From the IMG/VR virus record IMGVR_UViG_3300012936_003576, positions 1 through 49,553 of that record: a DNA stretch of 49,553 nucleotides; one strand, given 5' to 3'. The stretch comes from a virus. A program made the translations under genes and the position numbers. Of the stretch, positions 11,042 through 32,178 are shown one piece after another (position 1 is the first letter of the stretch; every line of letters starts with the position of its first letter). Under the pieces are notes generated by a model, which worked only from the letters and a program-made list of their open reading frames with translations, did not search any database and was not told the origin of the DNA.

Positions 11042-12061
11042 ATGAGAGTATTACTCAATGCTTTGGTAGTATTGCTACTACCATTATCTTTTGCTGTTTC
11101 TGCTGTAGCAGATCCACTAAAAATCGGATTCGTATATGTAGGCCCAACTGGCGATCATGGTTGGACTTATATGCACGATGTAGGTCGCAAAGAAATTGAA
11201 AAAGAATTTGGTGACAAAGTAGAAACTACATTCGTAGAAAGTGTAGCCTACGGTCCAGATTCAGAACGCGTCATGACTCAAATGGCAATGCAAGGTGTAG
11301 ACTTGATCTTCACAACTTCATTTGGATACATGGACCCAACACAAAACGTTGCGAAAAAATTTCCAGATGTAAAGTTTGAACACGCTACTGGTTATAAGAC
11401 TGCACCAAACGTGTCAGTGTATTCTTCTAAATTCTATGAAGGAAGATACGTTCAAGGTGTAATTGCTGGTCACATGTCTAAAAAAGGAAAAGCCGGATAC
11501 ATCGCATCATTTCCAATCCCTGAAGTTATCAGAGGAATCAATGCATTTTACTTAGGCGCAAAGTCTGTAAACCCAGATTTTGACGTAGACGTAGTATGGG
11601 TTAACACGTGGTACGATCCAAGTAAAGAAGCAGACGCTGCGACTGTATTAATTCAACAAGGTGCTGACATTATTACTCAACACACAGATTCTCCAGCGGC
11701 ACTACAAGTTGCTCAACAGTCAGGAATTAAAGCTTTTGGACAAGCATCTGATATGATTCAATTTGCACCGGACACTCAACTTACTGCTATTCTCGACTTA
11801 TGGGGACCTTATTACATTGAAAGAGTAAGAGCAGTTCTTGACGGTACATGGAAAGAGTCTGACACTTGGGGAGGTATGGATACTGGAATGGTTGCAATGG
11901 CACCATACACTAACATGCCTGACGAGATCAAAAAGATTGCTATGGCAGTAGAAAAAGATATTACAGAAGGTAAACTTGATATATTTCCAGGAAAAAGTGT
12001 TGGAGATCTATTAGGAATGAATCAATACGTTGAAGGAATTGATGCTTTTCTACCAAATTAA
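11042..12061 (+). CDS. BMP/PnrA-family periplasmic solute-binding protein
   Basis: Periplasmic component of an ABC importer. Residues 1-23 are a clear signal peptide (MRVLLNALVVLLLPLSFAVSAVA, cleavage about A-D). The mature part has the BMP/PnrA order: IGFVYVGPTGDHGWTYMHDVG, DLIFTTSFGYMDPTQNVAKKFPDVKF, EGRYVQGVIAG and VNTWYDPSKEADAATVLI. Length 339 is typical. Family members bind purine nucleosides or related ligands and, in alphaproteobacteria, other small solutes. No permease or ATPase is present, so it would dock onto a host transporter, as phage PstS proteins are thought to do. It sits alone between two terminators with a structured leader. Confidence 0.88.
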   Translation: MRVLLNALVVLLLPLSFAVSAVADPLKIGFVYVGPTGDHGWTYMHDVGRKEIEKEFGDKVETTFVESVAYGPDSERVMTQMAMQGVDLIFTTSFGYMDPTQNVAKKFPDVKFEHATGYKTAPNVSVYSSKFYEGRYVQGVIAGHMSKKGKAGYIASFPIPEVIRGINAFYLGAKSVNPDFDVDVVWVNTWYDPSKEADAATVLIQQGADIITQHTDSPAALQVAQQSGIKAFGQASDMIQFAPDTQLTAILDLWGPYYIERVRAVLDGTWKESDTWGGMDTGMVAMAPYTNMPDEIKKIAMAVEKDITEGKLDIFPGKSVGDLLGMNQYVEGIDAFLPN

Positions 12062-13817: not shown

Positions 13818-14045
13818 ATGAAACCCGGTGAGCAAATTCTTGTAGCCGCCAGAAAGCAAGCGGAAGGCGAGCTAGAAGTACATAAAGCAAATATTGCAGT
13901 TTACCAAACAATGCCGGCAGGGATTGGCGAACACAGCGATATTGTTGAAGCAGTCATGGCCGAACTTGATAAGATGGCGATGGCACATGATCGAATTGAA
14001 ATGTTAGACAAATATTTTACAAATAAGAGGGAAAATAATGACTAG
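13818..14045 (+). CDS. conserved small phage protein (75 aa), helical
   Basis: Helical, Ala/Glu-rich protein (MKPGEQILVAARKQAEGELEVHKANIAVY) of a type common in marine T4-like phages; function unknown. AGGAG at 13803-13807 serves ATG 13818 (ATG 13814 in another frame gives no extended protein). It is the first gene behind the late promoter at 13738 and overlaps the pseudoazurin gene by 8 bases, so both are probably made late. Confidence 0.7.
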   Translation: MKPGEQILVAARKQAEGELEVHKANIAVYQTMPAGIGEHSDIVEAVMAELDKMAMAHDRIEMLDKYFTNKRENND

Positions 14046-14481
14046 ACCATTAATCATTGTAATGTTACTCAGCTTCATGGGTACCATTTTTTTACAAGCA
14101 GCAAATGCTGAAGACATGACTATTGACATGTTGAATAAACGTGATGACGGAGCTAAGATGGTTTATAGCGAAGACATTGCATATATTGATGTTGGAGATA
14201 CTATTACATGGGTACCTACATCTAAAGGACATAACGTGCAGTTTATTGCTGGTCCAGACGGATGGGATCTACCTAAGAAAAGTAAGAACAACAAAGAAGT
14301 GTCAATCACTTTCGATGTTCCTGGTGTATATCTCTATCAGTGCACACCACATGCAACCATGGGTATGATTGCGTTAGTAGTTGTTGCTGAAGGTGGAGAG
14401 GTTCCTATGAACGATCTCAGTAAAGCTAAAGTCAGAGGAAAATCCAAAACAAAACTAAAGAAACTACTCGAACAGCTATGA
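14038..14481 (+). CDS. pseudoazurin-like type I blue copper protein, exported
   Basis: Periplasmic one-electron carrier. The signal peptide spans residues 1-24 and ends ANA-E. The cupredoxin core has the copper ligands His65 (KGHNV), Cys102 and His105 (YQCTPHATMGM) and Met110, spaced exactly as in pseudoazurin (C-x2-H-x4-M). A basic tail follows residue 125 (KAKVRGKSKTKLKKLLEQL), which is longer than in the cellular protein. In bacteria pseudoazurin passes electrons to copper nitrite reductase, nitrous-oxide reductase or cytochrome peroxidase. In the phage it may keep host respiration or redox balance running during infection. It precedes an Fe-S carrier and a nitroreductase, forming a redox set. 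Confidence 0.88.
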   Translation: MTRPLIIVMLLSFMGTIFLQAANAEDMTIDMLNKRDDGAKMVYSEDIAYIDVGDTITWVPTSKGHNVQFIAGPDGWDLPKKSKNNKEVSITFDVPGVYLYQCTPHATMGMIALVVVAEGGEVPMNDLSKAKVRGKSKTKLKKLLEQL

Positions 14482-14843
14482 CAGTATGTACTCTAACACC
14501 AGCAGCCGAAGCACAGATAGACAAGCTTTGTGAAGAAAACGATGTTTATGGAGTTAGTCTTAATCTAAAAGGTGGAGGTTGCGCTGGTTTTGAGTACGAT
14601 TGGGACTTTGTTAAAAGTCCTGAAGATCTTGAAAAAGACGACGAAGTTATAAAAACATCAGAAGGCAAGTGTGCATTTGTAATAGGTGCCACTAGCCTTA
14701 TGTTTTTATTTGGAACTGAACTTGACTACGTTAAGAGTATTGTAGGTAGTAATTTTGAGATAAAAAATCCTAACGCTAAGAGCTCATGTGGATGTGGAAT
14801 TAGTGTAAACTTTGATATGGAGAAAATAGGATATGCTCCTTAG
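14478..14843 (+). CDS. A-type iron-sulfur carrier (IscA/ErpA/HesB family)
   Basis: Carries and delivers Fe-S clusters to apo-proteins. The three conserved cysteines are present: Cys35 in KGGGCAGFEY and Cys104/Cys106 in SSCGCGISV. Length 121 is slightly above the cellular norm (about 107-116) because of a C-terminal extension (NFDMEKIGYAP). It overlaps the pseudoazurin stop by 4 bases and the nitroreductase start by 11. The phage encodes at least one 4Fe-4S enzyme in this window, the radical SAM protein at 20620, which could be a client; that link is inference. Confidence 0.92.
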   Translation: MTVCTLTPAAEAQIDKLCEENDVYGVSLNLKGGGCAGFEYDWDFVKSPEDLEKDDEVIKTSEGKCAFVIGATSLMFLFGTELDYVKSIVGSNFEIKNPNAKSSCGCGISVNFDMEKIGYAP

Positions 14844-15564
14844 TGACATAAAGTCTGCGGCCGCAGCAACAAATCCAGCACAAAGAAATTGGGACAGGAG
14901 TAGAGATATTCCTAAAGAGCACTTAGATCTGTTTGAAGATATTATCAGACTTGCTCCATCAAAACAAAACGAGACTCACTATAAAGTCTTTATGTTCACA
15001 GATCCTACTACTATAAGAAAGATATACGATAAGACTAATTACTTTGGTGTTCCACCTGCAAAGGAGGGTGATGATCCTACTGCTTTTACAGACAATCAAG
15101 GAATAACAAAAGACGAATACAACGTTAAGAATTCGCAGGTATGGTCTAACTTAGTTATCGCACTCTGTGAAGATTGGGATCAAAGTAGATCTAGAACTCT
15201 AATTCATAAAATAGTTGATGAAAGAGAAGACGTTAACTATGAAGCGATTAGAGAAAAGAATAAGATAATTCATATGAGTCAAGGAATTCTTTTAGGAGAA
15301 TTGATGTTGGCAGCTACTCTCTTAGGATATAGAACCGGATTGTGTTCTGCTTATGGACCTCAAGATATGTGGGACTTTGTAGAAGGCAGTGAATGTAACT
15401 GTCTTTTGGGCATTGGGTTCCCTCATCCGGATAAAGATAGAAGAGAACACGAAGAAGTTTATAATAGAGACATTGTAGCAGAAGATAGAAGGACTGGACC
15501 ACTCGATGAAAAGTGGAAGTTTCCTACTTTTGAAAAAGATGTTTATATTAAAAGAGATGATTAA
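14833..15564 (+). CDS. nitroreductase-family flavoprotein
   Basis: FMN-dependent oxidoreductase fold. The early segment LAPSKQNETHYKVFMFTD matches the APSxxNxQPW/xF FMN-binding start of the family. The middle GILLGELMLAATLLGYRTGLCSAY and CLLGIGFPHPDKDRREHEE match the second FMN contact. At 243 residues it has an insertion around residues 60-95 compared with minimal nitroreductases. Members of this fold also carry out dehalogenation and ring-forming or reductive steps, so the substrate is open. It is transcriptionally linked with the copper protein and Fe-S carrier. Confidence 0.8.
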   Translation: MLLSDIKSAAAATNPAQRNWDRSRDIPKEHLDLFEDIIRLAPSKQNETHYKVFMFTDPTTIRKIYDKTNYFGVPPAKEGDDPTAFTDNQGITKDEYNVKNSQVWSNLVIALCEDWDQSRSRTLIHKIVDEREDVNYEAIREKNKIIHMSQGILLGELMLAATLLGYRTGLCSAYGPQDMWDFVEGSECNCLLGIGFPHPDKDRREHEEVYNRDIVAEDRRTGPLDEKWKFPTFEKDVYIKRDD

Positions 15565-17361: not shown

Positions 17362-17790
17362 ATGTTTTTTGATTTTAATTTTGATAAAGTGAATAAGAGA
17401 TTGCATTGGACAACCGTATATAGTGAAAAGTTACTTTTAGCTGCGATCGGTATACTTACTATGATAGCAGCTGGAATTGACATATATAATATGGTCCTTG
17501 CACTTAAGATTACGTTAGGTGGAATATTCTTACTATTCATATACGCAGAGATTATAGGAATGGTTGGAGCATTTTATATAAGTAATAGGATTCCTGTAAC
17601 GTTACCGATTATAATTGCAATGACTGCTTTGTGCAGATTAATTGTGTTACATAGTAAAGATAATGAACCCCTCACACTTATTGCTGAAGCTGTAGCAATT
17701 GTTGTCCTTGCGGGCGCAGCTTATCTCATGAGTCTCAAGGATAAGTTAAGTTTGGAGAAACAAAAACTGAGAGAAGATTTGGAAGAATAA
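17362..17790 (+). CDS. PsiE-family membrane protein (phosphate-starvation-inducible type)
   Basis: Four hydrophobic helices, preceded by HWTTVYSEKLLLAAIGILTMIAAGIDIYNM, match the layout of PsiE (about 136 residues; here 142). Internal LLFIYAEIIGMVGAFYISNRIPVTLPIIIAMTALCRLIVL carries the conserved E-x-R-Y-type helix 2-3 region of the family. PsiE is induced by phosphate limitation in bacteria, but its biochemical role is not established. As the first gene behind promoter P5 it may be an auxiliary gene for phosphate stress, in line with the PiT-type permease at 33019. The stop overlaps the PEPCK start by one base. Confidence 0.75.
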   Translation: MFFDFNFDKVNKRLHWTTVYSEKLLLAAIGILTMIAAGIDIYNMVLALKITLGGIFLLFIYAEIIGMVGAFYISNRIPVTLPIIIAMTALCRLIVLHSKDNEPLTLIAEAVAIVVLAGAAYLMSLKDKLSLEKQKLREDLEE

Positions 17791-18983
17791 TGCCCAATAT
17801 TAATATTACAACATCACCAACTGGACGAAGTCCAGAGAATAAGTATTTCTTTGGTACTCAAACACGTGATCTAGATTTGTCACGTCCAAAGTTTAATAAA
17901 ATAGGATCTGAAGAAGATTTTCAAGATTTTTATAACGTCTTACTAAGTCAAAAAAATTACTTAGATCCTCTTAATTTTGAAACAGTAGGAACTAACTTTA
18001 CTCTTCATACAAATGATGAGAGACACAAGCAGTTCGTATGGAACATGTTTAAAATTACTGCAGAGGATCAAGAAGGTGATTGGACTATCTATCACAACAC
18101 CAGTATTAAGATGGAACCTAAGATCCATATTCACTTAGATAGAAAAATCATGCTTATTGCTGGTACGACTTTCTTAGGAGAAATTAAGAAAGGTGTCTTT
18201 GGTATTGTTAGTTTTGAGCTGCCTAAGTTTGACATCTTACCTATGCACTGTGGCGCTTTTACTTACAGAAGAACTACAAATCTTATGTTTGGTTTAAGTG
18301 GAACTGGTAAGACTACGTTATCTTCTGATCCTGAATATAAGTTAATAAGTGATGATGAAGTTGCGTGGACTAACATGGGTATACGTATGATTGAAACAGG
18401 TTGTTACGCTAAGTCAGAAGGACTAACACCTGAAACACATCCAACTATTTTTAATGCAGTTGAAGAGGCAAGACGTAGAGATACATTAGTAGAAGAAAAT
18501 CCAGAAGCAACAAATGCAAGATTAAGTTATCCTATTAGTTGTGTAGAGAACGCTTATCATAAAAGAGGAAACTTTGACCACGCTAATAACATATTCTTTT
18601 TAACTATGGATGCAGAAGGACTATTTCCCGCTATAAGTAGAATTAGTGGAAAAACTGTACAAAGGTTCTTTGAAACAGGTTATACTTCTCAAATGCCTGG
18701 GACTGAAGCTGGATCAAATGAAATAAAGAAGACGTTTAGTCCTTGTTATGGATCTCCTTTTATGCCGAGAGTAGTAAAAGAATACAGCAACTTGTTAATG
18801 GATAAGATTGAAAAACATGGTTCAAACGTTTTCTTAGTTAATACAGGAATGAATCCTGATACGGGTGATAGATTTGATCTTGACTTTACACGTAATACTA
18901 TTAAACAAGCTATCTTAACAGAGTATCCTTTAAGAGATACAAGTAACGAAGTACTAAAAACATTGGAGGCACTACTAGAGTAA
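17790..18983 (+). CDS. pckA: ATP-dependent phosphoenolpyruvate carboxykinase, compact form
   Basis: Converts oxaloacetate and ATP to PEP, CO2 and ADP. Active-site parts are in place: GRSP (residues 12-15, oxaloacetate-binding Arg), KK at 133-134 and His153 (Mn ligands), the P-loop GLSGTGKTTLS (168-178), SDDE (187-190, metal Asp) and NARLSYP (Arg244). SRISGKTVQRFFETGYTSQMPGTEAG matches the nucleotide-binding region. At 397 residues it is much shorter than cellular enzymes (about 530-540). About 50 residues before GRSP and part of the C-terminus are missing, while catalytic residues remain. The PEP could feed sugar or other synthesis in this operon. Confidence 0.9.
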   Translation: MPNINITTSPTGRSPENKYFFGTQTRDLDLSRPKFNKIGSEEDFQDFYNVLLSQKNYLDPLNFETVGTNFTLHTNDERHKQFVWNMFKITAEDQEGDWTIYHNTSIKMEPKIHIHLDRKIMLIAGTTFLGEIKKGVFGIVSFELPKFDILPMHCGAFTYRRTTNLMFGLSGTGKTTLSSDPEYKLISDDEVAWTNMGIRMIETGCYAKSEGLTPETHPTIFNAVEEARRRDTLVEENPEATNARLSYPISCVENAYHKRGNFDHANNIFFLTMDAEGLFPAISRISGKTVQRFFETGYTSQMPGTEAGSNEIKKTFSPCYGSPFMPRVVKEYSNLLMDKIEKHGSNVFLVNTGMNPDTGDRFDLDFTRNTIKQAILTEYPLRDTSNEVLKTLEALLE

Positions 18984-20619: not shown

Positions 20620-21873
20620 ATGAATTTTGACGAAGCAATGCAACTCGCCAAAGAGGCAATGCATAAGGACAAGTTTGACCACAACTTAAAGCCACGCGAA
20701 AGAGTATTTTCAAAGGTAGATGACGCTATGAATCTACCTATGACTGGAAATCCAGAGAAGGATAACATTACTCTTCTTCCTGATAGACCACCCGTCTTTC
20801 ATAACGTGCCAAACTACGAGTTAGAAAAGAATCCTTTCTCCTTCTTATATCTCGATATGACTTATAAGTGTAACATGGAGTGTGGATTCTGTGATACTCC
20901 TATTCGTCACTATAAAGATATGCCTATTGAAGTGTTTGAAGATTTGTGTAGGAGACTTCCTCGTCCAGTAAACATGAGGTTTGTTGGAGCTGAACCTACT
21001 CTTTATAAGAACTTACACAAGGCTATTGAGATCGGTACAAAATACGGTCACCAACTAGCAATTGTTACTAATGGTATTCGACTATCAAGTAAAAGATTCG
21101 TAGCAGATTTAAAACGAACGATTGATAACTGTGCTAATCCTAACTTAGTTAATCTTTCAGTTTCACTGAATGGTGGGTTCGAACATGATGAGTGGTACGA
21201 AACAATCGATCATGACATCAGCCACAGAAGAAAAAAGGTCATGGGATTCTGGAATCTTGTAGAAGCAGGATTTAAAAGAATATGTATTAACGCTATTATT
21301 GTTAGGAACCTAAATGAAGGAGTTATTAAACAGTTTTATGATACTGCAACAAGCCTACCTCCTGGCGTCGTTCAGAATATTAGATTTAGATGTGCAGCAA
21401 AGCAAGGAAGATACGTAGAGGATCTTTATCAAGCTGAAGAAGAGCAAACATCTTATACTGGATTGGAGCTTAATGAATACATTAAGTCAGTCATTCCAGA
21501 AGCAAACAGACCTTTAAAATGGATTAGAGATGGTATCCACCCGTCAGACGGTGCAGGAAACAGAATCAACAATCCAAACTTAAAGTGCAACCAGTGCTGT
21601 ATGATGTACTACATTAAGCCAAAGCTTTGGGTTGCAACAGTAGAGTTCGGTTCTCACAACAGTGCGATGTGTTGGCGCAGAGGACAGTTCGTAACTAGTA
21701 CACAAACAATTCAGCCAGCACACCATTATATTGACGAACTGAGTAGATACGTTAATTCGTATGTTCCTGATGGAATGAAAACTTATAGCGCCCACCAGTT
21801 AAAGAAAAAAATGTATGATGATTTTAAAAACAAGGGGAGGAATCCTCTAACGGAACCAAATTTTCAGGAGTAG
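20620..21873 (+). CDS. radical SAM enzyme
   Basis: The 4Fe-4S/SAM-binding motif is C84-x3-C88-x2-C91 (TYKCNMECGFCDTP). The GGEP-equivalent is VGAEPT near residue 126, and LVNLSVSLNGG is a core barrel strand. The C-terminal part has more cysteines (LKCNQCCMMYY and AMCWRRG), suggesting an auxiliary cluster or SPASM/twitch-like region. Length 417 suits a barrel plus C-terminal domain. The substrate could be a peptide, sugar or nucleotide; no small Cys-rich precursor peptide is visible next to it. ATG 20620 follows the oxygenase stop by 3 bases. Confidence 0.88.
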   Translation: MNFDEAMQLAKEAMHKDKFDHNLKPRERVFSKVDDAMNLPMTGNPEKDNITLLPDRPPVFHNVPNYELEKNPFSFLYLDMTYKCNMECGFCDTPIRHYKDMPIEVFEDLCRRLPRPVNMRFVGAEPTLYKNLHKAIEIGTKYGHQLAIVTNGIRLSSKRFVADLKRTIDNCANPNLVNLSVSLNGGFEHDEWYETIDHDISHRRKKVMGFWNLVEAGFKRICINAIIVRNLNEGVIKQFYDTATSLPPGVVQNIRFRCAAKQGRYVEDLYQAEEEQTSYTGLELNEYIKSVIPEANRPLKWIRDGIHPSDGAGNRINNPNLKCNQCCMMYYIKPKLWVATVEFGSHNSAMCWRRGQFVTSTQTIQPAHHYIDELSRYVNSYVPDGMKTYSAHQLKKKMYDDFKNKGRNPLTEPNFQE

Positions 21874-21875
21874 GG

Positions 21876-22118
21876 ATGAAACTATATGACTTCAAGCATT
21901 TATCCACTGTTGGAGAAAGTTATTGGCAGCACCTTCACTGGTGCTTGTATTCAACATGGATATTTCTCATTATGATACCTATTGCTCTTATTCACGGCTT
22001 TTTTCCAGTTTTACTGGCAAACTTGCCTGATAGGATTATGGCTAGGTACTTGAATAATTTTAAGAAAAGACGTTTGGCCACTGGTCAAGAGGAAGCGAGT
22101 GGAATAAGTACAGGATAA
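21876..22118 (+). CDS. DUF6356-like small membrane protein
   Basis: 80 residues with one or two hydrophobic segments (WIFLIMIPIALIHGFFPVLLANL). The order STVGESYWQHLHW, IHGFFPVLL and DRIMARYL matches the small membrane family DUF6356, which is common in bacteria; its function is unknown. It lies between the radical SAM and thiolase-like genes with 2-base and 1-base junctions, so it is fully embedded in the operon and may tether the pathway to the inner membrane (inference). Confidence 0.65.
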   Translation: MKLYDFKHLSTVGESYWQHLHWCLYSTWIFLIMIPIALIHGFFPVLLANLPDRIMARYLNNFKKRRLATGQEEASGISTG

Positions 22119-23200
22119 TGTTTAGGAAGGCTTATGTGGGGACTTATTATTCAAGTCCGTTTTGTAGATATGGTGGGTCTTTTAAATCTCACAATGCAAT
22201 AGAATTAGCTGCTCAAACTACGAAGGAATGGGCAGACTACACAAGTCTTGACGTTCAAAAATTTGACTATGTTATTTACGGAAATAGCGTACATCAAGAT
22301 CATGGTTTTTGGGCTGGTCCCTGGTCAGCCGCTCTACTTGGAGCAGAAAAAACTCCAGGTGTAATGATGAGTCAGGCCTGTACTACGGGCCTGTTCTCTT
22401 TATTTCAATCGGCAACAATGATTGAAACAGACGTATACGATAACGTCTATAATCTTACTTCAGACAGAACATCGAACGGACCAGTTATAACTTGGCCTGA
22501 CACTATGAAAAAAGAAGTTTGGGTAAAGGATAACTTTGAGTGGGATCCTTGGGGTAAAACTTCTATGATCGAAACTGCTGAAAGAATCAGAGATAAGTAT
22601 AAAGTATCAAGAGAAGAACTTGACGCGTGCACTGTTGAAAGGTATGAACAGTACGATAACGCGCCAAAAAGAACTTATATATTTCCAACTGCAGGAGTTA
22701 GCGAAGACGAAGGCATTAAAAAAATATCAATTGAAAGACTACAGAAACTAAGAAGAAATCATTCTCACTCAGTTGGTAACTGTACACAACCTGCAGACGG
22801 CCACACTGGAATAGTAGTTACAAGTGAAAAGACAGATGTAAAGATTATTTCATTTGCAATGTCTAGAGTTGAAAAAGGATATATGCCTGAAGCGTCAATA
22901 CCTGCAACAAAAAAAGCTTTAGAAAAAGCAAACTTAACGATAAAGGATATGAAAGTTATAAATCAACATAACGCCTTTGTTGTTAATGATATTGCTTTCT
23001 GTAAAGAGTTTGAAATAGCTACTTCTAGATTAAATCACTGGGGAAGTCCTCTGGTATATGGTCATCCACAAAGTCCAGTTTTAAGTCGACTTGCTATTGA
23101 AGCAATTGAAGAGACTAAAACACTTGGTGGTGGCTATTGTTTAGTAACAGGAGCAGCGGCTGGGGATCTAGGTGCTGCAATGATATTTAAGGTGGATTGA
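22118..23200 (+). CDS. thiolase-fold enzyme (acetyl-CoA acetyltransferase/ketoacyl synthase-like)
   Basis: The nucleophile Cys lies in MSQACTTGLFSLF (about residue 89), as in thiolases. VINQHNAFVVNDIAF is the NEAFA-like His loop, and YGHPQSPVLSR matches the GHPxGxSGxR segment. The last motif (GGGYCLVTGAAAGDLGAAM) departs from the classic C-x-G-x-G-x-G, so the reaction may differ from degradation of 3-ketoacyl-CoA. Length 360 is slightly short for thiolase (about 390). It could build or cleave a carbon-carbon bond on a CoA- or carrier-bound intermediate made by the AMP-forming ligase at 27174. Confidence 0.85.
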   Translation: MFRKAYVGTYYSSPFCRYGGSFKSHNAIELAAQTTKEWADYTSLDVQKFDYVIYGNSVHQDHGFWAGPWSAALLGAEKTPGVMMSQACTTGLFSLFQSATMIETDVYDNVYNLTSDRTSNGPVITWPDTMKKEVWVKDNFEWDPWGKTSMIETAERIRDKYKVSREELDACTVERYEQYDNAPKRTYIFPTAGVSEDEGIKKISIERLQKLRRNHSHSVGNCTQPADGHTGIVVTSEKTDVKIISFAMSRVEKGYMPEASIPATKKALEKANLTIKDMKVINQHNAFVVNDIAFCKEFEIATSRLNHWGSPLVYGHPQSPVLSRLAIEAIEETKTLGGGYCLVTGAAAGDLGAAMIFKVD

Positions 23201-23406
23201 TGGTTACATGGTACGCATATAATGTATACGCAGGAAAGAAACACATAGACTTTGTAAAGGCGTTTAGTGAAGATGATGCTTGTAAAAGAGTTAGAAAAAA
23301 GTGGGGACCTCCGGAAGAATGGTATCCTGATTCAGAGTACTGGGCTGAATGGGTTCCTCTAGGTCCAATTTTAGGTAGATCAGATGGAAAAAAGAGTCAT
23401 AAGTAA
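23200..23406 (+). CDS. small Trp-rich protein (68 aa), unknown
   Basis: ATG 23200 overlaps the thiolase-like stop (TGATG) and is preceded by GGTGGA. It contains a mini-domain rich in aromatic residues (WYAYNVYAGKKHIDFVKAFSEDDACKRVRKKWG, then EEWYPDSEYWAEWVPLG). The KAFSEDDACKRVRKKWG segment looks like the amphipathic helix of small beta-alpha-beta proteins. No family is recognised. It overlaps the next gene by 23 bases. Confidence 0.6.
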   Translation: MVTWYAYNVYAGKKHIDFVKAFSEDDACKRVRKKWGPPEEWYPDSEYWAEWVPLGPILGRSDGKKSHK

Positions 23407-24130
23407 ACCTGCTCCTTTTCTGCAGGTTATAAGAAACAGACCCCTCAAAAAATATAAAACAAATATTAAGGAGTGGCTCAAGCCTGTCATAGACTTGTCA
23501 GACTTTTATGTGTATCCAATGAATGGAATAACTGAAGGTTTGAACTATTGGATGTTAAAAGAAAAGAGAGACATCTATAGAGAGAAGGGTGACTATGAGT
23601 GGGTAGAGATTAGAAATAAGTGGGAAAAGGCTTTTGGAAAATCTGACTACATTCACTACTTAAGTTGTCCAAGTAGTATAGACGGAAACTTTAGAGAAAT
23701 TCCTAAAGATGTTCCGGTTGCTCTTGATCTTGCATACATAGGATCAACTCCTATTCGAAAGATTGAAGTTACACCAAACATTGAATACGTATTTTATGGG
23801 TTGAGTAAACCTTTTGGACTCAACGGCATAAGAACAGGTTGGTTCTTTACAAGAAGACCTGACATAAAACTTCATAAACTCTTGAAACTAAACTACTACA
23901 ATCATTTAGCACATGATGTAGCAGAAGAAGTTATGAAAGAGTTTCCAATAGACTTTATATATAATACATATAAAATGGAACAGAAAAAGGTGTGTGATCA
24001 GTACAATCTTTTACCGAGTGATTGCGTTTGGTTAGGAACTTCATCTGACCCCGCATACAATGACTTTGTTAGAGCGACAGTTGCTAGATTATGCTTGACA
24101 GAATATTATGAAAACAAACCATATATCTAA
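23384..24130 (+). CDS. PLP-dependent aminotransferase-like protein (fold type I), short
   Basis: Resembles class I/II aminotransferases. NGITEGLNYW is the small-domain/PLP-entry region, VALDLAYIGSTP carries the Asp and Tyr that contact the PLP ring, and YGLSKPFGLNGIRTGWFF matches the S-x-S-K-x-F/Y-G-L-x-G-x-R-x-G-W motif with the Schiff-base Lys. At 248 residues it is far below the usual 380-420, lacking most of the C-terminal small domain. It is either a compact phage enzyme or works with a partner. Its place beside cupin and RuBisCO-like genes suggests amino-group transfer onto a keto intermediate. Confidence 0.72.
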   Translation: MEKRVISKPAPFLQVIRNRPLKKYKTNIKEWLKPVIDLSDFYVYPMNGITEGLNYWMLKEKRDIYREKGDYEWVEIRNKWEKAFGKSDYIHYLSCPSSIDGNFREIPKDVPVALDLAYIGSTPIRKIEVTPNIEYVFYGLSKPFGLNGIRTGWFFTRRPDIKLHKLLKLNYYNHLAHDVAEEVMKEFPIDFIYNTYKMEQKKVCDQYNLLPSDCVWLGTSSDPAYNDFVRATVARLCLTEYYENKPYI

Positions 24131-24434
24131 TTTTACTCGTGGTTGGTTCATAGGCAACTTCGAGCCATCAGTACTTCAAACAGAAGATTTTGAAGTAGCA
24201 ATTATTTCACATACAAAAGGCGAAAAGATCCCACGGCACTATCATCCAGTGGCGACGGAATACAATGTAATGTTATCCGGTAATATGTTTGTCAATGGAA
24301 AGAACCTAACAAAAGGAGATATGTTTACGTTTGACCCGAATGAAATTTGTAACGTTAAAGTACTAGAAGATTCAGAGGTCTTATGCGTAAAAGTTCCTAG
24401 TATACAAGGAGATAAAGTATGCACACAACGGTAG
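24108..24434 (+). CDS. single-domain cupin
   Basis: Small beta-barrel protein. PRHYHPVATEYNVMLSG is cupin motif 1 (H-x-H-x4-E-x6-G) with the metal ligands, and GDMFTFDPNEICNVKVLED is motif 2, though its metal His is replaced (P-N-E). Such single cupins are sugar isomerases, dioxygenases or lyases. It overlaps both neighbours (23 bases with the aminotransferase-like gene, 16 with the RuBisCO-like gene), so its stoichiometry is probably coupled to theirs. The substrate is unknown. Confidence 0.8.
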   Translation: MKTNHISNFTRGWFIGNFEPSVLQTEDFEVAIISHTKGEKIPRHYHPVATEYNVMLSGNMFVNGKNLTKGDMFTFDPNEICNVKVLEDSEVLCVKVPSIQGDKVCTQR

Positions 24435-25420
24435 TGTATAAAGTTAAGTCAAGAGACATGCAGGCAGCCGCACATGCTATTGCAATCGGACAGAGTATTG
24501 GAAATCCAAACATTAGAAATGAATATGAAAATAATGACCACGCAGCTGAAATTAGCTATGTACATAACGATGAAATTGTGGTAAAATATAAACAGAAGAA
24601 CTTAAACAGACCAACTGATGTTGCACAGCTTTTATGTACAATACAAGGAGGTCAAAGTGATATTGAGTTAATCGATGAGTGTAAAGTTGTAGATCTATTT
24701 GTAGACATTCCTGAATATAAAAAGATTTGGAATCACCCTACAGATAGACCCTTAGTTGGAGGTATTGTCAAACCAAAGACAGGACTTACACCTAATCAAT
24801 TATCTGATATCGTAAAAAGAATGTGTGATGGTGGAATAGACTGGATAAAAGAAGATGAAATACTAAGTGATCCAGCGTACTTTCCACTTTCAGCTCGAGC
24901 TGAAGTTGTAGCAAAAGTGCTTGATAACTATAGAGACGTTAAGTACTGTTTATGTGTTAATGGAGATCCTATACACTTTTTAAGACAAAGAAAATCTGCT
25001 GAAGAGCATGGATTAGGAATACACACAAACTTTTGGACTGGCCTAGGTGCCTATGAAAACCCTTCAGTGTATCAACACTTTCAAAGGAGCGGAATAAGAA
25101 TACTAACAGATGACAGAAATCCTTTCTCAATATCTTGGCCCGTTATTTGTAGACTAGCTATACTTCAAGGAGTTGACAGTATTCATGTAGGAATGATTGG
25201 TGGTTACTATCCAGGAAACGAAGAAGAAGTTTATGAAGCAATTGAGATGTGTAATGATCACAACAGGATACCAACACTAAGTTGTGGAATGAATCCTGAA
25301 ACTGCAAAGGCGATAAAAGATAAGATAGGAAACAAATGGTTGGCTGCAGTCGGTGGTTGGCTCCATGAAGGAGATATTACAGAGAATGTTAAGAAAATGA
25401 GGAAAGCAGTTGAAAGTTAA
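24419..25420 (+). CDS. RuBisCO-like protein (form IV-type), 333 aa
   Basis: TIM-barrel enolase/carboxylase-superfamily protein. Residues 1-110 resemble the RuBisCO N-terminal domain (VVYKVKSRDMQAAAHAIAIGQSIG). The barrel begins GGIVKPKTG (KPK 118-120) and has GGIDWIKEDE with Lys144, Asp146 and Glu147 at the carbamate/Mg site; SIHVG supplies His256, LSCG Ser288 and VGG 312-313. Loop 6 (GYYPGNEEE, 262-270) lacks the CO2-gating Lys, so carboxylase activity is unlikely. At 333 residues it is shorter than known RuBisCO-like proteins (about 400). Cellular relatives catalyse enolisation, isomerisation or decarboxylation of sugar-derived keto compounds. The pathway is unknown. Confidence 0.88.
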   Translation: MHTTVVYKVKSRDMQAAAHAIAIGQSIGNPNIRNEYENNDHAAEISYVHNDEIVVKYKQKNLNRPTDVAQLLCTIQGGQSDIELIDECKVVDLFVDIPEYKKIWNHPTDRPLVGGIVKPKTGLTPNQLSDIVKRMCDGGIDWIKEDEILSDPAYFPLSARAEVVAKVLDNYRDVKYCLCVNGDPIHFLRQRKSAEEHGLGIHTNFWTGLGAYENPSVYQHFQRSGIRILTDDRNPFSISWPVICRLAILQGVDSIHVGMIGGYYPGNEEEVYEAIEMCNDHNRIPTLSCGMNPETAKAIKDKIGNKWLAAVGGWLHEGDITENVKKMRKAVES

Positions 25421-26087
25421 TATTTTAATGTTGGCCGCTGGTCGAGGTTCAAGGTTTAAAGAATACACTGACATTCCTAAGCCTATGATTCCTGTATGGG
25501 GAGAACCTATGTATAAGTATGTTCTCAGATCTTTAAACATGGAAAATGATTATCAACTTCATGGCGTGTTTCAAGATGACGTTGCACCTACAGAAGAAAA
25601 GGGTATGATTATTCATACACTAGATGGAGTAACAGATGGAGCTGCAACCACTGCTTATCACGTCATAGATAATTCACATGATAACAATCCGTGGTTAATT
25701 ATGGATTGTGATTTAATCGTTCGAACCGGAAGATTGTTGTTTGGTCCTATGAGTGGAATTATTGTTGAAAAGAAACACACGTCTGATCCAAGAGCTAGTT
25801 ACAGTTTGATAAGAGATAATAAGATCTTATGCACAGCAGAAAAGCAAGTTATATCTCCGAATAGAAATGTAGGAATGTATTACTGGTCAAGTGGTTCACT
25901 GTTCTGTGAATGTTATGAAGATGCAGTGGTAGATGACGCAAGAGTAAACGGTGAGTTTTATATCTCACCTCTATATAATTATGCAATCAGAAAAGGTGAA
26001 ACTGTGGTTCCTTTCTATGCAGAATCATTTCATCCGATTGGAACACCTGAGGATTTAGAGGAATATGTATCACGAACGGGGATTTAA
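25410..26087 (+). CDS. sugar-phosphate/alditol-phosphate nucleotidyltransferase
   Basis: NTP-transferase fold (GT-A-like). The N-terminal signature LMLAAGRGSRFKEYTDIPKPMIPV (G-x-G-x-R and the P-K-P loop) is intact. WLIMDCDLIV gives the metal Asp, and GEFYISPLYNYAI plus HPIGTPEDLEEY close the sugar pocket. Length 225 matches the small nucleotidyltransferases that make CDP-, GDP- or UDP-activated sugars. The start is TTG 25410, behind GAGG and 11 bases inside the RuBisCO-like gene. Likely it activates the pathway's sugar or alcohol product for the transferase-like gene that follows. Confidence 0.88.
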   Translation: MKVNILMLAAGRGSRFKEYTDIPKPMIPVWGEPMYKYVLRSLNMENDYQLHGVFQDDVAPTEEKGMIIHTLDGVTDGAATTAYHVIDNSHDNNPWLIMDCDLIVRTGRLLFGPMSGIIVEKKHTSDPRASYSLIRDNKILCTAEKQVISPNRNVGMYYWSSGSLFCECYEDAVVDDARVNGEFYISPLYNYAIRKGETVVPFYAESFHPIGTPEDLEEYVSRTGI

Positions 26088-26979
26088 TGAACAGTGGCCA
26101 AAATACGTGACTGGTCACCGGTTAAAACTAGCTGTCTTACTTACAGGATCACCTAGGTTTGTTTCAGAAGGTGCAGACTGGTGGTTCTCTAAAGCGATAC
26201 CTTTTAATTGTGATATAGACTACTATGGTCATTGTTGGGACGATGATGATGAAATAGGATCCACAAGATACAACACGAGACTGAATGTAAGAGATTTTGA
26301 AAAGTGGCCTTTTAAAGACTTTTCTTTTACAAAACACACGTTTGATTTAGATCTATATGATTCATTTCGAAATGAGGATACAAGACTTAGTAGACATATA
26401 TTCAGACCACAGAGAAGAGACCACGTTGTAAGTGTTCACAAAGCAACTCAACTCATGCTTGAAAGTAAGATTCAATATGACATGGTGTTAGTTATGAGAT
26501 ACGACACAATCATAAAACCTGGATGCTTAGATCTTTCAATTCCATTTGTGTATGAATTCAATAAAAATCTAAATAGCTTTCATAAAGGACATGACGTAGC
26601 CCTTTTAAAAAACGATACAAATCCTCATATATTTACTTCTTGGGTTCAGGTAAGACAAGGACTTCCAATGATGCAAGATTATATGTTTCTTTCTACATAC
26701 AAAGACTGGAAAAAATATGCAGGAAATTTGTATAATACATATAGTAAACTACTCAATGAAAATAAAAGTTTTTTAGAGTGCACTAATTTTGTTGAGTCAA
26801 TATATCAACCTCACGTGTTTTGGGCTTTTATAGGAATGTATTCAAGAGCAAACTTCATCGCACAGGAAGACTTAGGCTGTGTGGCATTAAGATCTGCAAA
26901 AGAAAATATACAGAAGTGTTTCTATAATGATATAGTTCAGGAACACGATGAATCTTTTAACAGGATGTTTAATGGATGA
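26065..26979 (+). CDS. glycosyltransferase-like protein (WavE-like/GT-A?)
   Basis: 304 residues. LKLAVLLTGSPRFVSEGADWW begins a nucleotide-binding-type strand-helix, YDMVLVMRYDTIIKPG has the R-x-D-like acid pair used by LPS-synthesis transferases of the WavE type, and MMQDYMFLSTY occupies the usual C-terminal position. It overlaps the nucleotidyltransferase by 23 bases. These points suggest it moves the activated product onto a glycan or another acceptor. The family assignment is tentative; I see no clear DxD beyond RYD. Confidence 0.5.
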   Translation: MYHERGFNEQWPKYVTGHRLKLAVLLTGSPRFVSEGADWWFSKAIPFNCDIDYYGHCWDDDDEIGSTRYNTRLNVRDFEKWPFKDFSFTKHTFDLDLYDSFRNEDTRLSRHIFRPQRRDHVVSVHKATQLMLESKIQYDMVLVMRYDTIIKPGCLDLSIPFVYEFNKNLNSFHKGHDVALLKNDTNPHIFTSWVQVRQGLPMMQDYMFLSTYKDWKKYAGNLYNTYSKLLNENKSFLECTNFVESIYQPHVFWAFIGMYSRANFIAQEDLGCVALRSAKENIQKCFYNDIVQEHDESFNRMFNG

Positions 26980-27187
26980 ATTGCCCGATGACAGAGAAGT
27001 AATGAAAATGTTCTACATGACGAAAGGACATTTAGAGGCTACCATAGAAACAATGAGAAGTTGTTACTGGGGATATTTCAAAAGAGCCTGGTACAATACA
27101 GAGTTCTATAGAGCAGAAGAAGGTTTTGACGAAGCTTATGACAAAGCGATTAAAGAGAGGATAGAAAAGAAAGATGGCGATGTATAA
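26972..27187 (+). CDS. small acidic helical protein (71 aa), unknown
   Basis: The start was set at ATG 26972 (MDELPDDREVMKMF), an 8-base overlap with the previous gene; an upstream ATG at 26948 is possible. It is helical and aromatic-rich in the middle (RSCYWGYFKRAWYNTEFYRAEEGFDEAYDKAI). No domain is recognised. It is coupled to the ligase gene by a 14-base overlap. Its size and helical composition would allow a carrier or adaptor role, but there is no acyl-carrier DSL motif. Confidence 0.6.
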   Translation: MDELPDDREVMKMFYMTKGHLEATIETMRSCYWGYFKRAWYNTEFYRAEEGFDEAYDKAIKERIEKKDGDV

Positions 27188-28535
27188 TGCAGTAAAAGAT
27201 TTTATTAGAGAATCTCCTCATATAGCAATATACTATAAAGATGAAGAGATTACCTATCATGAACTTTATGAGAAAGTTTGTAGTTACAGCAACCAACTAC
27301 TAAAGCAGTTTAAAAGAGGAGATGAGTTTGTCATAAAAATGTCTGACAGGCCAGAATACTTTTATTTGTTTTGGGGTGCTGTTAAGTCAGGTATAGTTCC
27401 GCACTTAATTAATCCTGCATCATCTACACAACCTGAAGGTCTCTATACATTTACTGATGAAAATATTGGAGAGCTTGATAGTAACGCACAAGATTCAACT
27501 GATAATTTACCAGCTGACACAAACAAGGAAGACCTATGCTTCTATCTGTACACTAGTGGAACATCAGGATATATGCAGGCAGTTCCTCACAGACACCAAG
27601 ACTTAGTTGGAGTTGCTTCTTCATACGCAAAAAAGACTCTTAATATTATTTCATATGATGTAGTGTTTAGTGCTGCTAAATTATTCTTCGCGTATGGAAT
27701 GGGTAACAGTATGACATTTCCATTGTATGTTGGTGCTGCTACTGTTCTAATGAGTGAACCTTCTACAGCAAAGAGTACTCTTGACGCTATTGAAAAGTAT
27801 CAACCAACAATTTACTTTGGTGTTCCTACGATATATAACTATCAGTTAAAAGCTAAGAAGAGAGATCTATCTTGTTTAAGACTATGTGTATCTGCAGGTG
27901 AATCTCTCCCAGGAAAAATTAAGCAGCAGTGGGAAGATCAGCACGGTACAATTATTCTTGATGGAATAGGTACAACTGAAGCTCTACATATCTTTATATC
28001 CAACTTTACATGGGATCACGAGAATGATTGTACTGGACGAATAGTTCCTGGGTACGAAGCTAAAATACTAAAAGATGATGGATCTGAAGCGGCAGATGGA
28101 GAAATTGGATCTTTATACGTAAGAGGTGAATCCATCACTGAAGACTGGTTAAAAACTGGTGATGAGTTTATTCGAAGAGGAGCAAAGTACTACTATCAAG
28201 GTCGAACAAACGATATGATCAAAGTTGGTGGAGTATGGATCTCTCCAGTTATTATGGAAAAGAAGATTATAGAGATTGAAGATGTTACCGAAGTTGCAGT
28301 TGTTCAACACTTAGATAATAACACAGGACTTAGGTTTCCGAAAGCCTATATTGTTTCAGATACAAACGATCAAGTAAAACTAAAGAATGCAGTCAAAAGA
28401 AAGTGTATGGACGAACTTCCAACGAACTACTTTCCACGATCTGTGCAGTTTGTAGATAGTTTACCTAAGACTGATACCGGAAAAATTAAGAGAGCTACGC
28501 TGCGCGAGCTATATGCTGACGAGCAATCTCAGTAA
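27174..28535 (+). CDS. AMP-forming acyl-CoA synthetase/acid-CoA ligase (ANL family)
   Basis: Adenylates a carboxylic acid and usually links it to CoA. The P-loop A3 is YTSGTSG (residues 126-132), GIGTTEAL matches A5, LKTGDEFIRRGAKYYYQGRTNDMIKVGG covers A7-A8 with the hinge, and KTDTGKIKR carries the A10 catalytic Lys near residue 437. At 453 residues it is compact for the family (about 500-550) and most like benzoate/short-acid CoA ligases in the A8 region. It probably loads the pathway's acid for the thiolase-fold enzyme. Its last 41 bases overlap the convergent gene 28495-29025. Confidence 0.9.
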   Translation: MAMYNAVKDFIRESPHIAIYYKDEEITYHELYEKVCSYSNQLLKQFKRGDEFVIKMSDRPEYFYLFWGAVKSGIVPHLINPASSTQPEGLYTFTDENIGELDSNAQDSTDNLPADTNKEDLCFYLYTSGTSGYMQAVPHRHQDLVGVASSYAKKTLNIISYDVVFSAAKLFFAYGMGNSMTFPLYVGAATVLMSEPSTAKSTLDAIEKYQPTIYFGVPTIYNYQLKAKKRDLSCLRLCVSAGESLPGKIKQQWEDQHGTIILDGIGTTEALHIFISNFTWDHENDCTGRIVPGYEAKILKDDGSEAADGEIGSLYVRGESITEDWLKTGDEFIRRGAKYYYQGRTNDMIKVGGVWISPVIMEKKIIEIEDVTEVAVVQHLDNNTGLRFPKAYIVSDTNDQVKLKNAVKRKCMDELPTNYFPRSVQFVDSLPKTDTGKIKRATLRELYADEQSQ

Positions 28536-31353: not shown

Positions 31354-32178
31354 TTAAGCTGCTATCTTTTCTTTCTCTTCTAGAAGATCAAGTGCTGATA
31401 TCATTCTAGTCATACCGATACCGCCACCAACTCTTTGAAAGAAGTCGTGCTTTAAGAACTCTTCAAGCTCCGCTTCAACTCGATCTTTTCCAAACAAATC
31501 ATATAACAAGTTAGCGTAGGCACCATCAGTGATAGTGTGAAACGTGTCTCTCATCTGATGAACGTCAGTTGAACGTTCTGCTGATCCGATCGTCTCCATC
31601 CCTCCAAGTATTACATCAATCTTTTTACTTGTAACACCATCAGAGTTTCTTGACATGTTCCAAAACGGTGATGTGAATTCTGGAAAGTGTGTTATCAATC
31701 CGTGTCCAATCTGTTCTTCATGTTCATGATCTAATTCTTCAACTTCAAATTCAGACGCCCAGTTATAGTACGTTCTGTCTTGCAACTTAGGAAAGCCTAA
31801 GTATTCACACAGCTCTATTTCCATATCCTTTAAATCGTCTACGCCTCCAGGAAACTCAAACTCAAACATTGGAAAGATTATGTCGTGTCTTCCCGGCTTT
31901 GCGTTTGGTTCTTGTCTGTACGAAGTCGAGCTACAAAAAAACCCCTTCTCAGAGGGGCGGGTAAGTAGTTCGTATTCTAACCACATTTGGCCTGTTTGGG
32001 GCAGTGGCCAACGTTGGCCTGCGTATTCATACGTTGCAACATTAAATGGATCTTCACATGCTGCAAGTATTGAAAGTCTGTTTTGAGTATGGACTTCTAA
32101 GAATCCTTTACTTAAAAAAAAGGACCTTAAAAGGTCCACGGTTTTCGTATATTTTGATGGGTCTATAAGCTGCGTCAT
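31354..32178 (-). CDS. class II aminoacyl-tRNA synthetase-like protein (Asp/Asn/AsnA-type core)
   Basis: The catalytic core of a class IIb synthetase without an anticodon-binding domain. Motif 2 is SYRQE...GRHDIIFPMFEFEF (residues 86-108) and motif 3 is VGGGIGMTRM (249-258). WPLPQTGQMWLEYELL and KKIDVILGGMETIGSAERS match the Asp/Asn-RS order before motifs 2 and 3. At 274 residues it has only the core, like AsnA-type paralogues and other aaRS-like enzymes that aminoacylate non-standard substrates. It is followed 4 bases downstream by the unusual tRNA, and a late promoter box lies at 32212. It may charge that tRNA or make a small amide. Confidence 0.85.
   Translation of the reverse strand: MTQLIDPSKYTKTVDLLRSFFLSKGFLEVHTQNRLSILAACEDPFNVATYEYAGQRWPLPQTGQMWLEYELLTRPSEKGFFCSSTSYRQEPNAKPGRHDIIFPMFEFEFPGGVDDLKDMEIELCEYLGFPKLQDRTYYNWASEFEVEELDHEHEEQIGHGLITHFPEFTSPFWNMSRNSDGVTSKKIDVILGGMETIGSAERSTDVHQMRDTFHTITDGAYANLLYDLFGKDRVEAELEEFLKHDFFQRVGGGIGMTRMISALDLLEEKEKIAA

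Follow-up and report, generated by a model that had tools for sequence, protein, structure and literature searches.

The window, i.e. the whole 49.6-kb stretch of the IMG/VR viral record that was analyzed, carries at 24419-25420 on the plus strand an intact ORF with an ATG start, which encodes a RuBisCO-like protein (RLP) of 333 residues. The preliminary description had recognized the protein as RuBisCO-like, and this is borne out by its match to the Pfam family PF00016 (RuBisCO_large) with E=1.4e-19 and 70.9 bits at a cut-off of 30.1. The top match of a single-sequence phmmer search of the PDB is the RuBisCO-like protein 3nwr (9.5e-17), and with a profile of the clade (A3) the match to a solved RuBisCO rises to 5.5e-49. 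The AlphaFold2 model (mean pLDDT 93.2, pTM 0.91) consists of an N-terminal α/β domain and an α/β barrel, the architecture of the RuBisCO superfamily. Its best Foldseek matches are the RuBisCOs 2d69 and 2cwx and the RLP 3nwr (TM-score 0.82–0.87, normalized by query length), and 50 of the top 50 matches are RuBisCOs or RLPs; the BFVD viral structure library searched with the same model returned generic barrels only. Membership in the RuBisCO superfamily is thereby confirmed, the protein being RuBisCO-like in the form IV sense of a homologue without the carboxylase residue set. The small size remarked upon earlier is also real. Among 65 members of its clade the protein is the shortest, the next one (337 residues) being clipped by a contig end and the rest having 346–443 residues; part of the linker preceding the barrel is missing and the C-terminus is short.

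Residue columns were aligned to spinach RuBisCO numbering, with counts taken over the 65 distinct clade members and compared with 77 sampled cellular relatives. The active-site residues named in the preliminary description all lie at the positions it gave. K118-P119-K120 (codons at 24770..24778) provides K175 and K177 and is invariant (65/65), as is the metal and carbamate triad K144/D146/E147 of the GGIDWIKEDE motif (codons of K144-E-D146-E147 at 24848..24859), which corresponds to K201/D203/E204. H256 (25184..25186) occupies the H327 column and is His in 62/65 members. The S288-C289-G290 stretch (25280..25288) corresponds to S379/G380/G381 and is invariant, Cys replacing G380 in every member. 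The phosphate-site glycines G312-G313 (25352..25357; G403/G404) are conserved in 65/65 and 64/65 members, respectively. Columns K175, K177, K201, D203, E204, S379, G381 and G403 are thus retained without exception.

The absence of the loop-6 lysine of true carboxylases, noticed earlier, holds for the whole clade: Lys334 is replaced by Tyr263 (25205..25207), which is Tyr in 65/65 members, the cellular relatives having Lys in 76/77. His294 is likewise replaced by Gln (Q222; 65/65 against His in 76/77 cellular relatives), next to R223, where R295 is retained as Arg or Lys (codons of Q222-R223 at 25082..25087). Asn123 is changed to Gly, Glu60 to Gln, Thr65 to Asn and Trp66 to Pro, each in 65/65 members, the Trp66 column being gapped in the sampled cellular set and uncertain as a single column. 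N29, P30, Q222, Y263 and C289 are new invariant residues specific to the clade. Established RuBisCO enzymology assigns part of these columns to the handling of CO2 and of the carboxylated intermediate. On this basis, and given which columns are retained and which replaced, the metal center and both phosphate ends appear to be usable, and the residues which handle CO2 and the carboxylated intermediate appear to be gone. As H294 is replaced by Gln, K334 by Tyr and N123 by Gly in all 65 members, a carboxylase is almost certainly excluded, and the branch very probably does not fix CO2, in support of the non-carboxylating enzyme proposed previously. The identity of the protein as a true CO2-fixing RuBisCO, brought by the phage as an auxiliary carbon-fixation gene, was considered in view of the intact metal triad, of the best NCBIfam score being that of the RuBisCO large-subunit model (2.2e-17) and of viral genes annotated as rbcL in the accessible parts of two reports (PMC12615777, PMC8506154). 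It was rejected, being highly improbable: this score amounts to 62.7 bits against a cut-off of 438, and E60, T65 and W66 are replaced along with loop-6 K334, H294 and N123.

The replacement of E60, N123, H294 and K334 in all members could also mean that the protein is catalytically dead and plays a binding or regulatory role among its neighbors. This is improbable as well: across the 65 divergent sequences KPK, Lys-x-Asp-Glu, S379 and the glycines of the phosphate site show little or no variation, and purifying selection acts strongly on close pairs. Pairs with dN below 0.15 give dN/dS of ~0.02–0.23 (values near 0.5, obtained with distant pairs close to saturation, were disregarded). The residue pattern is not due to chance because it is invariant down to ~36% identity to the window RLP and because of these low ratios. 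The clade-specific invariant residues point to an active site which has been remodelled rather than lost.

Neither a single-protein scan of the IMG/VR viral contigs with the window RLP nor tblastn against 50,697 phage records gave a match; the branch therefore escapes close-similarity searches, and an alignment including PDB fragments was needed for the scan that recovered it. The alignment-guided scan of IMG/VR found 226 viral stretches encoding relatives, and nearly all of the best 80 are full length with 38–50% identity to the window RLP. A second scan, seeded elsewhere in the branch, gave 346 viral stretches; the two scans have stretches in common, and other RuBisCOs may be counted among the loci beyond those fetched. 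The gene is thus widespread in viral contigs other than the window, for which the preliminary description had suggested a search. In a search of bacteria and archaea with one genome for each species, at least three matches were at the level of the branch; among the matches listed these are a SAR11 single cell (L083), an alphaproteobacterial single cell (L084) and a Pacearchaeota MAG (L085), and the remaining ones are ordinary RLPs and RuBisCOs with 22–31% identity. Whole-genome sampling found the branch in 3/397 genomes of the SAR11 order and in 1/162 genomes of the order of L084, and a phylum-level sample of 398 genomes contained no member besides the query genome.

Two trees set the branch apart from every cellular RLP and RuBisCO sampled (SH-aLRT 100 in one, bootstrap/SH-aLRT 100/100 in the other), and the cellular SAR11 sequences nest inside it. 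The trees cover cellular sequences other than references of forms IV-Photo, IV-AMC, IV-Aful and IV-GOS. In the comparison with bacterial RLPs, the window RLP therefore falls into a branch of the RuBisCO superfamily that is distinct, mainly viral and sporadic in cells. As for the carrier, the window contains matches to the UvsX, DnaB-type helicase and ThyX families, and neither a capsid gene (gp23) nor a terminase gene was found on the 49.6-kb fragment. The T4-like phage named earlier is a possible carrier of this fragment. T4-type gp23, full-length or nearly so, is present on six other RLP contigs, one of them of 307 kb, so that the branch can be taken as securely viral in its setting, and the window as probably so. 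That the gene is borne by phages is supported accordingly.

The RLP gene lies within a tight co-directional gene set. The gene for a small cupin of 108 residues with invariant H44 and E51 (24108..24434, plus strand; Cupin_2 at 2.7e-5, below the curated cut-off; alignment A5) overlaps its start. The gene for a sugar-phosphate nucleotidylyltransferase (25410..26087, plus strand; PF12804 at 2.2e-6) overlaps its stop with a TTG start, so that the three genes overlap end to end. This arrangement supports the dedicated operon suggested in the preliminary description. The nucleotidylyltransferase gene is in turn overlapped by an uncharacterized one (26065..26979, plus strand) whose product has no Pfam match, is possibly glycosyltransferase-like and resembles, by eye, the C5 and C17 families found near other RLPs and gp066 of the cyanophage S-CAM9. 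Upstream of the cupin a PLP-aminotransferase-like protein is encoded (23384..24130, plus strand; weak Alliinase_C match of 0.0079, below cut-off). This gene and the thiolase gene upstream were considered as members of a conserved cassette, a view that is not supported, as neither is found again next to an RLP elsewhere. A HAD mutase or a GDPD-like gene was not seen beside the RLP of the window.

The nucleotidylyltransferase is the conserved partner of the RLP. When the neighbors were clustered, 62 of 64 loci had it near the RLP in the same orientation; the remaining two are cut by a contig end or lie on a contig of 3 kb. In 50 distinct new loci from the second scan, which had no part in the original observation, the partner lies within 4 kb in 48/50, the cupin in 43/50 and a short GDPD-like protein in 40/50; several of the pairing exceptions are clipped by contig ends, and the loci are not evolutionarily independent. 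Counted over 83 loci, the cupin family lies within 4 kb of the RLP in 42/83. One subgroup has the partner downstream of the RLP and another has it upstream; the pair has therefore survived rearrangement. It carries the nucleotidylyltransferase signature G-x-G-x-R-F...K with invariant G11, G13, R15, F16 and K24, and its family profile matches the nucleoside-diphosphate-sugar pyrophosphorylase 4evw (2e-36) and, more weakly, mannose-1-phosphate and heptose-pathway enzymes. Profiles of the cupin and of the GDPD-like neighbor matched PDB entries only weakly. The latter family, of ~145 residues, matches no Pfam entry and is marked by invariant HRG, ExD and GHD motifs (e.g. L168:8379-8807 and L069:11109-11546, besides other loci).

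In eight loci the partner is fused to a HAD domain which is closest to β-phosphoglucomutases, and the RLP of the L040-L050 group is accompanied by an adjacent HAD of the phosphomannomutase type (PF03332, 1.9e-20). HADs of the β-phosphoglucomutase type can equally be plain phosphatases. That mutase-like HADs of two kinds occupy this same place suggests an order of RLP product, sugar-1-phosphate and nucleotide sugar.

The sulfur-salvage or sugar-catabolism role put forward earlier was not supported. In such a case the protein would be a catabolic or salvage RLP (methionine salvage enolase, methylthioribulose isomerase or branched-sugar decarboxylase) recycling sulfur or carbon for the phage. To our knowledge, all characterized RLPs have catabolic or salvage roles, and there are weak NCBIfam matches to OiaX (NF042437, 6.4e-15) and MtnW (TIGR03332 and NF007095, 5.7e-9 and 1.8e-5). 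These scores are, however, far under the curated cut-offs (54.9 against 700 bits for OiaX; 35 against 409 and 23.6 against 513.6 bits for MtnW). In the tree the branch is placed outside both the MtnW-like and the OiaX-like branches, the MtnW-like rows being assigned by genome of origin and sequence, without a family scan. Unlike the sampled cellular relatives, which keep H294 and K334, the branch has other residues at both positions. The conserved neighbors are nucleotide-sugar genes (nucleotidylyltransferase, mutase-like HADs, glycosyltransferase-like proteins and epimerases) rather than genes of salvage or catabolism. Identity with MtnW or with OiaX was rejected on these scores and the separate position in the tree, and a salvage or catabolic role is unlikely. 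MtnW, the 2,3-diketo-5-methylthiopentyl-1-phosphate enolase (2oek), shares with the branch the superfamily fold and the lack of carboxylation, and differs in that the branch is separate in the tree and no salvage genes are found near the RLP.

The setting of the pair points instead to synthesis of a surface sugar. In two SAR11 genomes the RLP and the nucleotidylyltransferase are found in chromosomal surface-polysaccharide islands among glycosyltransferase-like genes. One of the islands encodes polymerase- and flippase-like membrane proteins, and the islands adjoin housekeeping genes (pntA-like in one genome, lepA-like and pheT-like in the other), as read from the sequence without a profile search. 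In one SAR11 locus the RLP is flanked by two different nucleotidylyltransferase-like genes (L169:8866-11592). The phage loci are flanked by glycosyltransferase-like, methyltransferase and epimerase genes. In the T4-type cyanophage S-CAM9 the same HAD-nucleotidylyltransferase family (gp067) occurs in a glycosyltransferase cluster which differs by lacking an RLP; the family is therefore not specific to RLP products. The product of gp066, which follows the fusion gene in S-CAM9, was considered as a replacement of the RLP and rejected, since by eye it is glycosyltransferase-like and not barrel-like; it therefore gives no clue to the substrate.

T4-type phages glycosylate their DNA, and a gene for a C5-methylase (PF00145, 2.9e-18) is present in the window. 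Both would agree with a cassette which makes an activated sugar or a similar group for hypermodification of phage DNA. The occurrence of the same gene pair in the SAR11 polysaccharide islands, and of the phage copies among glycosyltransferase-like and epimerase genes, speaks against this, and it is not a probable explanation. A role in surface glycan synthesis is the most economical one because of these islands, the flanks of the phage loci and the S-CAM9 cluster; DNA modification or virion glycosylation is a possible alternative destination of the sugar.

As the RLP lies almost always beside a sugar-activating enzyme, it most likely takes part in making an unusual sugar that goes into a surface glycan. 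The best reading is thus a biosynthetic role rather than salvage or catabolism: the RLP is probably a non-carboxylating isomerase, epimerase or enolase making a phosphosugar which is converted to a nucleotide sugar and incorporated into a surface glycan. The substrate would be a keto-sugar (or keto-acid sugar) carrying phosphate, bound by the phosphate sites and by the metal site of the conserved Lys-x-Asp-Glu residues, possibly with the lysine carbamylated. The protein would then take a proton to give an enediol, re-protonation of which would amount to isomerase, epimerase or enolase action. The product may be passed to the neighboring nucleotidylyltransferase, in some relatives via the HAD-type phosphosugar mutase, and the nucleotidylyltransferase would convert it to an activated nucleotide sugar. 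Glycosyltransferases would then attach this sugar to a surface glycan as the presumed acceptor. During infection the sugar may serve to change the surface of the host (or be added to parts of the virion), and the few SAR11 carriers may build it into a surface polysaccharide of their own.

A more tentative proposal is that the virus-dominated branch as a whole is a biosynthetic nucleotide-sugar enzyme whose isomerization, epimerization or decarboxylation is new for RuBisCO relatives and whose sugar is undescribed in phage or bacterial glycans; this may well turn out otherwise. If right, RuBisCO relatives would have an anabolic role in surface-sugar synthesis, carried mostly by phages, and one of the most studied enzyme folds would have a new chemistry. 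It would also re-explain viral genes which automatic annotation is likely to call rbcL and to count as carbon fixation.

Form IV RLPs (3nwr of Burkholderia fungorum, 1ykw of Chlorobium tepidum and the 3-oxo-isoapionate-4-phosphate decarboxylase OiaX) have in common with the branch the two-domain RuBisCO fold, the K175 and K201/D203/E204 columns, S379, the phosphate-site glycines and an incomplete carboxylase set. In contrast to them, the branch (~22–31% identity) has Gln for H294, Tyr for K334, Gly for N123, Asn for T65 and Pro30, comprises proteins of 333–443 residues, is paired with the nucleotidylyltransferase and is mainly viral. Archaeal type III RuBisCOs (2d69/2cwx and 8dht) give the best fold and profile matches, whereas the RLP is without the loop-6 Lys and other carboxylation residues and has a shorter C-terminus. 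According to the accessible text of the GOS survey, ocean RuBisCO homologues fall outside all known forms (PMC1821046), and a form IV-GOS is listed in the accessible part of PMC10173188. Judged by these descriptions, such proteins are marine, divergent and without assigned function like the branch, and could include it; neither a viral origin nor a gene pairing is mentioned for them in that text. A landfill virus is reported, in the available part of PMC12607003, to carry an RbcL-like AMG, virus-encoded RbcL clustering with "RbcL-like" proteins; it is virus-encoded like the window RLP and is described there without pathway or gene context. Soils and a salt lake have yielded viral rbcL genes, one of which, from soil, reportedly functions as an active carboxylase together with rbcS, as far as the accessible text goes (PMC12615777, PMC8506154). 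In the accessible portion of the open literature on RuBisCO-like proteins together with phage, polysaccharide or nucleotidyltransferase, neither a description of the viral RLP branch nor a nucleotidylyltransferase partner or glycan setting for a viral RLP was found.

Several other genes of the window deserve mention. An ATP-type phosphoenolpyruvate carboxykinase of 397 residues (17790-18983; PF01293, 6.2e-90) belongs to central metabolism and is unusual in a phage. At 20620-23200, upstream of the RLP set, lie genes for a Radical SAM protein and for a thiolase-family protein (PF00108/PF02803), neither of which recurs beside other RLPs. Downstream of the set an AMP-binding ligase near the benzoate-CoA ligase family is encoded (27174-28535; 4.1e-104, slightly below the curated cut-off). 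Consecutive genes at 14038-15564 encode a plastocyanin/azurin-type copper protein, an A-type Fe-S carrier and a protein with a weak nitroreductase match. A PnrA/Bmp-like ABC transporter substrate-binding protein is found at 11042-12061 (3.1e-56), and a stand-alone class II aminoacyl-tRNA-synthetase core of the D/K/N type (274 residues, 3.3e-11) at 31354-32178 on the minus strand. An NAD-dependent sugar epimerase and a UDP-glucose/GDP-mannose dehydrogenase are encoded in tandem at 1128-2911 and add to the nucleotide-sugar genes of the contig.
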